Below, in pieces: positions 11,825-62,781 of a DNA stretch of 64,000 nt. Each line of letters opens with the position of its first letter. Position 1 is the stretch's first letter. A model generated the notes under the pieces. The model made no database searches. It worked only from the letters and a program-made list of their open reading frames with translations, and was not told the DNA's origin. The DNA lies in contig CATLLJ010000003.1 of the NCBI GenBank assembly GCA_950022495.1, forward strand, positions 76,277 to 140,276. The letters run 5' to 3'. The position numbers and the translations under genes were made by a program. Source of the stretch: an uncultured bacterium (GTDB lineage: Bacteria; Cyanobacteriota; Vampirovibrionia; Gastranaerophilales; Gastranaerophilaceae).

Positions 11825-12097
11825 ATGTTTCAAGAAGCTTTGAGTCTATACATACAGAGAATTCAAGATTTTCTGATTTATGCGAAGAATTATTTTATTC
11901 GCAAGAATCCGATTCAGGCTCTTGCAACTTCAATTACAGAAGGAATCAAGGATTTTCTAACAGTAAAGAAAAAGTTAAAAATGGCTCAGTACAGGTTAAA
12001 TTATCACACCCACCAGTTTCATAAAATGGAACAACTGATAGCCGAAAACAGCCAGCATAACTTTTTGAAAGGATCAAACTTAGATCAAAGAAGGTAG
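11825..12097 (+). CDS. Small helical protein behind a sigma-28-like promoter
   Basis: A 90-residue protein, predicted mostly alpha-helical, basic, with no signal peptide or membrane segment. TAAGGAGC precedes the ATG. It is the first gene of a two-gene unit with 12115-12444. Late flagellar units often hold small chaperones or filament-related proteins, but this sequence matches none I know, so no function is assigned. Confidence 0.5.
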   Translation: MFQEALSLYIQRIQDFLIYAKNYFIRKNPIQALATSITEGIKDFLTVKKKLKMAQYRLNYHTHQFHKMEQLIAENSQHNFLKGSNLDQRR

Positions 12098-40407: not shown

Positions 40408-40435
40408 TTGTTTAATTCTTGGAGTTTGATATAAT
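40408..40435 (+). promoter_or_regulatory. Promoter of the poly-G-linked pilin gene
   Basis: TTGTTT and TATAAT are separated by 16 bases, 26 bases before the ATG at 40462. It drives the short poly-G leader frame described next. Confidence 0.5.
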
Positions 40436-40461
40436 AATTACAGATTTGAAAAGGAGAGAAA

Positions 40462-40512
40462 ATGCTAAGAATAAGAAATAACAATAAAAATCGGGGGGGG
40501 GTAACCTTTTAA
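40462..40512 (+). other. Out-of-frame leader ORF of the pilin gene, read as 9 G
   Basis: The ATG has an ideal ribosome site (AAAAGGAGAG six bases upstream). With nine G the frame runs 16 codons (MLRIRNNNKNRGGVTF) and stops at TAA 40510. With ten G (or seven) the same start would read through into the pilin frame, giving a leader ending CGCCNRFA before FTLAEV. This makes the short frame the probable OFF state of a slipped-strand switch, or a one-base assembly error. Confidence 0.7.
40493..40501 (+). repeat. Homopolymeric G9 tract (pilin leader)
   Basis: Nine consecutive G, preceded by TC and followed by TAACC, lying between a strong start codon and the pilin frame. The window is AT-rich and has only one other run this long (62380-62388). 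Confidence 0.95.
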
Positions 40513-40526
40513 GGCTCTCCAAGTCA

Positions 40527-41300
40527 GTGTTTTGCGGATGTTGTAATCGTTTTGCATTTACCCTTGCAGAAGTTTTAATAACCCTTGGTGTTATCGGTGT
40601 TGTTGCCGGAATGACTTTGCCTAATTTGATTCATAAGGCTCAAGATAGGGCGGCTATTTCTCAATTGAAAAAAGCTTATTCAGTGTTAAATCAAGCTTTT
40701 CGTCGTGCGGTGGACGAATATGGTCCGGTTGACAGCTGGTGCGACGCCGATAATTATAGAAGCGGTGGCGATAGGGCTGAGTGTACGGAAATGATTCCCA
40801 AAATTTTATCACAATATATTTCTATGCAGAATTCAAGAGTGCAGGTAACTTATAAAAATAGAGTTAAGGGTGGAACTTTCTCTATGGGATCTAATTTTAA
40901 AAATAATACTACTTTTGTGCTAAATGATGGTACAATTTTGTATTTTTATATATCACCAGGTGATAATTATAGCAGTAACTGGTGTAAAGAATCAAAAGAT
41001 GTGGTTGGTGCACGTAGATTTTATTATCACTGTGGTCAAGTTTTTGTAGATGTAACAGGAAAAAGTAAGCCAAATGTAAATAATAAAGATTTCTTTGCCT
41101 TTCAAATATATCAGGATGGTATTGCTCCTATGGGAAACAGGGCTGATGAAAAATCTTCATACTATTATACTTTCAATAGTGCTTGCAAAAGTGAGGTTGG
41201 TGCTTACGGTGCCTGTACCGGATGGGTTCTTGATATTGGGAATATGGACTATCAGTATTGTAATGATTTGAGTTATACAGGCAAAACTCAATGCCATTAA
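40527..41300 (+). CDS. Type IV pilin-like protein, probably phase-variable
   Basis: A 257-residue frame read from a weak GTG. It has the prepilin core RFAFTLAEVLITLGVIGVVAG (given here as the motif FTLAEVLITLGVIGVV), then a helix (SQLKKAYSVLNQAFRRAVDE) and a Cys-rich globular domain with about ten Cys. Cleavage is expected before F of FTLAEV. The GTG lacks a clear ribosome site, whereas the upstream ATG at 40462 has a perfect one but is one base out of frame because of the G9 tract. The protein is thus probably ON only at other tract lengths. Its stop shares TTAA with rqcP. Confidence 0.8.
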   Translation: MFCGCCNRFAFTLAEVLITLGVIGVVAGMTLPNLIHKAQDRAAISQLKKAYSVLNQAFRRAVDEYGPVDSWCDADNYRSGGDRAECTEMIPKILSQYISMQNSRVQVTYKNRVKGGTFSMGSNFKNNTTFVLNDGTILYFYISPGDNYSSNWCKESKDVVGARRFYYHCGQVFVDVTGKSKPNVNNKDFFAFQIYQDGIAPMGNRADEKSSYYYTFNSACKSEVGAYGACTGWVLDIGNMDYQYCNDLSYTGKTQCH

Positions 41301-62337: not shown

Positions 62338-62781
62338 ATGAAAAAATTGATTTGTTTAATCGCGTTTACATTAGCTATTGGGGGGGGGCCTTGTATTGCT
62401 GCTCCCGGTGGACCACACGGTGGTCATGGCGGTCGCCCGCCAATGCACGGCGGAGTATCAATGGGACATCGTCCGCCTATGCATAGACCTCCGATGCCTC
62501 ATCATGTTGGCATGAGACCTCCTGTTCATCATCCAATATATCGTCCAATGCCGATAAGACCTATTTATAGACCTTATTATTACTCATATTATCCGTCAAC
62601 ATATTATTCAACTTATACTTATTATACACCTACTACATATTCTTATACTCCGGTAACTCCTGTTACGTCAGAAGTTAACACTGTAGTTGTACGTGATCCT
62701 TATGCGGGTATAAATACCGCAGCGAACGTTATAAATACAGCTGCTAATGTTGCATCAACAATTAGATTTTTAACATGGTAA
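62338..62781 (+). CDS. Secreted His/Pro/Tyr-rich protein with G9 tract in its signal peptide
   Basis: A 147-residue protein. The signal peptide MKKLICLIAFTLAIGGGPCI contains the G9 tract as three Gly codons (62380-62388), in frame here. The mature part begins with a Gly/His/Pro stretch (about residues 25-60), followed by a Tyr/Pro/Thr-rich region and a short helical C-terminus. Shifts of one base would stop translation early: at TAG 62484 with ten G or at TGA 62513 with eight. This is the pattern of a phase-variable gene read in the ON state. AGGAGAATT precedes the ATG. A metal-binding or coat-like role is possible; unknown. Confidence 0.7.
   Translation: MKKLICLIAFTLAIGGGPCIAAPGGPHGGHGGRPPMHGGVSMGHRPPMHRPPMPHHVGMRPPVHHPIYRPMPIRPIYRPYYYSYYPSTYYSTYTYYTPTTYSYTPVTPVTSEVNTVVVRDPYAGINTAANVINTAANVASTIRFLTW
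62380..62388 (+). repeat. Homopolymeric G9 tract (secreted protein)
   Basis: Nine consecutive G after ATT and before CC. Same length as the tract at 40493-40501. Confidence 0.95.

Follow-up and report, generated by a model that had tools for sequence, protein, structure and literature searches.

An uncultured member of the Gastranaerophilaceae carries a type IV pilin-like gene that is out of frame, as assembled, with its ribosome-site-bearing ATG by the length of a tract of nine G, and the same arrangement precedes many other prepilin genes of this genome and of its relatives. The best explanation, to which we give a probability of about 0.8, is translational phase variation by poly-G slippage in a multigene pilin repertoire that is mostly OFF. 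The stretch of 64,000 nucleotides analysed here (the window) belongs to a genome of 1.93 Mb (99% complete), of which, beyond the window, the stretches around tracts and prepilins were examined.

Anatomy of the Locus

The pilin gene is solitary, its flanking genes lying on the opposite strand (Table 1). A sequence-only reading had described an ATG with a ribosome site leading into nine G, a frame that dies after 16 codons, and a prepilin core within reach of a change in tract length, and all of this was recovered, the G count being exactly nine. As assembled, the ATG gives MLRIRNNNKNRGGVTF and then TAA, with MLRIRNNNKN as the peptide ahead of the tract. One additional G (or two fewer) joins the ATG to the prepilin frame (...GGGNLLRLSKSVFCGCCNRFA-FTLAEVLITLGVIGVVAG; core FTLAEV, with F at 40557), which is open to its TAA and then has a leader of 32 residues. 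Across the tract this frame reads GGG-N-L-L-R-L...NRFA-FTLAEVLITLGV, the segment TAACCTTTTAA being GGT AAC CTT TTA (GNLL). The same reading had called the promoter strong. The −10 element is a perfect TATAAT, but the best −35 matches the consensus at only three of six positions, and the consensus scan returned no promoter on the + strand at the locus because the −35 falls below threshold. The in-frame GTG had been said to lack a clear ribosome site and to give a leader closer in length to that of the other pilin. It is indeed preceded by only AAGG, 12 nt upstream, and its leader of 10 residues is nearer to those of ordinary prepilins.

Table 1. Features of the pilin locus (positions in the window)
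Feature	Position	Strand	Basis or remark
Weak −35, TTGTTT (3/6 consensus match)	40408-40413		Sequence
−10-like TATAAT	40430..40435	+	Sequence
Shine-Dalgarno AAGGAG, ending five bases 5′ of the ATG	40451..40456	+	Recurs as SD-ATG in other modules
ATG leader frame as assembled (OFF state): 16 codons, then TAA 40510-40512	40462..40512	+	
G9 tract; ON at 10 (or 7) G	40493..40501	+	
Post-tract segment TAACCTTTTAA	40502..40512	+	TAA in both non-pilin frames at once
GTG in the pilin frame, alternative start with poor ribosome site, absent from most paralogs	40527..40529	+	
Mature type IV pilin-like protein FTLAEVLITLGV..., 247 aa, stop TAA 41298-41300	40557..41300	+	

The product has a class III leader with an FTLxE core and a hydrophobic N-terminal helix, and the pilin with its upstream frame matches the Pfam family N_methyl (PF07963) with 23.8 bits (cut-off 21.2). 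The AlphaFold2 model (pLDDT 89.8) predicts a helix of 53 residues (3-55) followed by an alpha/beta domain. Because a Foldseek search of this model against the PDB gave nothing at E ≤ 0.001, the protein would be termed pilin-like by its N-terminus and overall layout only. Within a pilus it may be a major, a minor, or an adhesive subunit. The genome encodes a prepilin peptidase and pilus assembly ATPases, and 52 prepilin-like genes were found in it.

Poly-G Modules in the Genome

G/C runs in the window do not exceed five bases, except for two of length 9. Genome-wide there are 14 distinct runs of at least nine (all nine or ten long), against 0.58 expected under a first-order model of the window, an excess that is not due to chance. 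Twelve of these 14 runs sit in prepilin leaders (12 of the 52 prepilin-like genes). An SD-ATG makes 11 of the 12 modules readable, and not one of these 11 is in frame, which has a probability of about 0.01 if one in three is expected in frame by chance. Nevertheless, 10 of these 11 OFF modules have intact ORFs, of 221-305 codons. Most modules share a leader resembling MLKFNNIKK(F/I) and the post-tract sequence GTAACCNNTTAA, which encodes G-N-L-L in the pilin frame and places an immediate TAA in both others. The post-tract motif of the window gene recurs in 10 of this genome's modules, and several species in the genus have it too. A few members are broken: the copy on contig C19 is frameshifted, and the one on C12 (L056, C12:24102) has the tract TGGGGGGAGAGG and has lost its ATG. 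Together with L308 and L318 of another genome (G043; GGGGTGGGGG; G6), L056 has an interrupted or shortened tract and is apparently a locked switch copy.

The second G9 of the window (62380-62388; feature 62338-62388 and on) lies in the signal peptide of a Gly/His/Tyr-rich secreted protein (MKKLICLIAFTLAIGGGPCIAAPGG...) and is in frame as assembled. It is a further candidate for phase variation and also an internal control for the counting of G9. Elsewhere in the genome (L051, 795-1358; contig C18, tract at 12010), a hexapeptide acyltransferase has a G9 inside its ORF, in frame, and resembles phase-variable glycan-modifying genes.

Distribution in the Order

The module consists of an SD-ATG, a tract of G8-13, off-frame stops, and the prepilin core. 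A search for this design as nine or more G followed within 18-78 bases by codons for FTLAE picked out 99 of the 383 genomes covered in the order, representing 18 of 52 genera and almost all from one family. Reversed-pattern controls over the same 383 genomes gave no match, and 84 genomes from outside the order all lacked the design. The module also occurs in a sister genome within the genus; the lineage is Gastranaerophilales, which is the gut-dwelling, non-photosynthetic branch of Cyanobacteriota. Within the family, the GTAACC motif after the tract is confined to the genus of the window, and most genera have a post-tract sequence of their own, usually with off-frame stops close by again (median of 13 bases past the tract to clear both off-frame stops). 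In the two closest homologs of the window pilin (53-54% identical), tracts of G9 and G10 occupy the corresponding position, the flanks are unrelated, and both genes are OFF. Hence, the tract persists while its surroundings change. Scans of viral contigs found no copy or relative of the window pilin, and one match to the motif. A scan of genome contigs led back to the same species representatives.

Several observations were made along with this survey. The metagenome-assembled genome JAMPCZ01 (G014), deposited as 'Muribaculaceae bacterium NALB_7821b_15', belongs by genome search to the genus of the window and has 37 copies of the module, so that its public name looks wrong. Contig ends that fall at tracts in this genome were weighed as possible evidence of length mixtures, but the repeated leader sequence explains them. 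In L007, L015, L090, L097, and L102, dispersed repeat-like sequences (HCEE..., CHPELDSGS, FRTCFGI) lie in frame between tract and core and add as many as about 130 residues to the leader, which seems to be insertion-tolerant. Partial copies of the core (such as FTLAEGATHV...IAARFG before FTLAEV) occur in the leaders of L003, L053, L054, L042, L039, L043, and L288, as if an element had duplicated its own target in frame. One prepilin leader (L205, about 2733-2760, genome G117) has two G12 tracts, two bases apart, before FTMAEI. In a different phylum, four TonB-receptor-like genes of Aliarcobacter vitoriensis (L128, L144, L158, L160) have G9 and then TAACCTATTAAGTGC in the signal peptide, with the double-stop layout of the pilins, and all four are, as assembled, out of frame with their ATG. 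A common origin of the GGGGGGGGGTAACCTATTAA shared with these receptors is not claimed, as the scan selected for the motif and about 30 chance matches are expected by simple base counting over 257 Gb.

Tract Length and Reading Frame

Among 131 modules with a clear SD-ATG (the ATG of each being picked by rule), from 39 genomes, 19 are ON, 69 need +1, and 43 need +2 (112 OFF). The modal tract length is 9-10. Both ON and OFF alleles thus occur in this set, the window gene itself being seen only OFF. When lengths were permuted within each genome, so that its set of lengths and its leader phases stayed the same, 29.8 ON modules were expected, and 19 or fewer were obtained in 0.02% of shuffles (P = 0.0002, an approximate value, since related copies are not independent). 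Most of the sample was gathered by a pattern of at least nine G, which affects a plain comparison with one-third and leaves the shuffle unbiased. Because 19 ON are observed against 29.8, length is not independent of frame. The tract length thus responds to the upstream reading frame, with the ON length depleted. Such depletion would follow from a leader that is translated into pilin in a system where OFF prevails, and it is hard to obtain from sequencing error or from an idle tract.

Copies that are nearly identical differ in length in several genomes. In G082, copies with almost identical flanks have G10, G12, and G13; in G093, near-identical copies have G12 and G13, one of them ON; and of three copies in G071 two are G11 and OFF and one is G10 and ON. 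Two observations count against switching: five near-identical G9 copies in G082 show no length variation, and all the assembled readable copies of the window's genome, like the eight of eight in G045, are OFF, which is more uniform than free switching predicts. The orthologs of G044 and G045 have G11 and G9, respectively, and both are OFF, with dN of 0.091 and dS of 0.347. This shows that the protein is under purifying selection although both consensus alleles are OFF. In the testable pairs, dN/dS comes to about 0.26 and about 0.04. The idea that the tracts result from lost mismatch repair is rejected, as mutS1 is present in 32 of 32 genomes tested, with or without tracts, and there is therefore no obvious hypermutator background.

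Alternative Explanations

A miscounted homopolymer was the main alternative put forward in the sequence-only reading; the true tract would then have ten G and the gene would never be out of frame. A systematic undercall by one would make modules needing +1 the commonest, which they are (69 of 131), and in G045 each of the eight modules is G9 and needs +1. Against this, 43 modules need +2 and 19 are ON, so that both OFF frames and the ON frame occur; two non-pilin G9 tracts of the same assembly are in frame; and length tracks the upstream phase within genomes, a phase that sequencing error cannot know. A miscount has accordingly become very unlikely. There is also a slight chance of a constitutive start at GTG 40527, the ATG ORF being then a short leader peptide. 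This codon is in frame and would give a leader of more ordinary size, but it lacks a good Shine-Dalgarno sequence, and 117 of 141 modules, including most paralogs of this genome, have no ATG, GTG, or TTG between tract and core. The GTG is hence rejected as the general start of the family and weakened as an alternative start here. It would, moreover, not explain why a hypermutable tract is conserved and why its ON lengths are depleted.

The tract might also act during expression, programmed ribosomal frameshifting or RNA polymerase slippage yielding a fixed in-frame fraction from an OFF gene. Long G runs are slippery, and the OFF ORFs are intact and under purifying selection, as such a mechanism would have it. 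However, the needed shift is not conserved (+1, +2, and 0 occur, even among near-identical copies), and ON lengths would not be singled out. No stimulatory structure was found downstream of the tract (mean fold z of −0.15 over 139 modules). With neither a conserved direction of shift nor a structure, programmed ribosomal frameshifting is rejected, and the explanation as a whole is highly improbable, though slippage during transcription could contribute some expression of OFF alleles. That the gene is a decaying pseudogene can practically be dismissed. It is out of frame and a few family members are broken (the C19 and C12 copies), but almost all OFF genes of this genome have full ORFs, and the homologs of other species keep both tracts and intact ORFs, at the low dN/dS values given above.

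Slippage switching, which the sequence-only reading had proposed for this gene, is in contrast supported by a recurrent module conserved in position, by tract lengths that follow the frame in the 131 modules, by near-identical copies that differ, and by intact OFF ORFs under selection. Every member of this multigene type IV pilin-like family has a separate poly-G tract, placed after the SD-ATG leader and before the core of the prepilin, and replication slippage within the population would lengthen or shorten this tract in steps of a single G. Of every three lengths, one would join the ATG to the pilin frame and turn the gene ON, with a leader of about 32 residues, and in the two remaining frames translation would meet TAA stops directly past the tract (OFF). 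With most members OFF in the population consensus, a cell would show few of many pilins at once. The pilins are presumably exported and assembled, and the benefit may be evasion of phages, evasion of host immunity, or a change of adhesion. The wider proposition is reasonably likely, namely that the family as a whole has a default-OFF repertoire, with unlinked pilin genes that number from a few up to dozens in a Gastranaerophilaceae genome, each with its own double-stop poly-G switch, and a combinatorial choice of filaments.

Comparison with Known Systems

The best-documented cases of phase variation come from mucosal pathogens. In Neisseria gonorrhoeae, pilC1 and pilC2 undergo translational phase variation through poly-G, as reportedly described by Jonsson et al. 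in 1991. In Campylobacter and Helicobacter, poly-G tracts switch mainly glycan, flagellar, and membrane genes, and the variation of Neisseria pilE occurs by gene conversion from silent cassettes. The tracts described here resemble the contingency loci of Campylobacter and Helicobacter in length (G8-G13, modal 9-10) and in their translational ON/OFF logic, whereas the lineage is cyanobacterial and prepilin leaders are switched. As with pilE, pilins are diversified, but each gene has its own leader and tract.

The gonococcal pilC undergoes poly-G (G9-G15) frameshift ON/OFF switching of a pilus protein, and the likeness of pilC1 and pilC2 to the present genes lies in this frameshift switch and in a product of the type IV pilus system (PMC5320596). 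In contrast, pilC is a pilus-assembly gene in two copies, and here it is the pilin-like subunits themselves that would be switched; at least a dozen genes in each genome, unlinked to one another, encode them, and stops in the two off frames are built in after every tract. The opa genes of Neisseria likewise form a multigene family of surface proteins in which every copy has a slippage tract of its own close to the 5′ end, but the tract is a CTTCT pentamer and the products are outer-membrane adhesins instead of a G tract and pilins (PMC5320596). In C. jejuni, poly-G tracts have an insertion bias at 8-9 and a deletion bias at 10-11 (cited in PMC4085013), a balance of slippage that the modal length here matches. 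Since poly-G genes switch in meningococci that are proficient in mismatch repair (PMC4085013), the presence of mutS1 is compatible with switching. For earlier genomes of the group, only partial sets of flagellar and pilus genes were mentioned, one genome having type IV pilus genes (PMC5877343). In the open-access literature searched, nothing was found on phase variation in Gastranaerophilales, nor on a gut lineage of cyanobacteria that switches its pilin subunits by the dozens through poly-G. What is known is thus poly-G switching of a pilus protein and, from opa, the switching of a multigene family, and what is new is many pilin subunits, each with a double-stop poly-G switch and mostly OFF.

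Implications

In conclusion, the genome comparisons suggest that an uncultured gut lineage within the cyanobacterial phylum has a large set of phase-variable pilins. Switching would account for the way in which gene callers split or mis-start these pilins. Metagenomic tract lengths would be a ready read-out of selection on gut surface filaments, and the question of what drives it (phages, host antibodies, or adhesion) becomes testable in existing read data. If the family-wide, default-OFF reading is true, gut Cyanobacteriota would have a phase-variable surface on the scale of that of mucosal pathogens.
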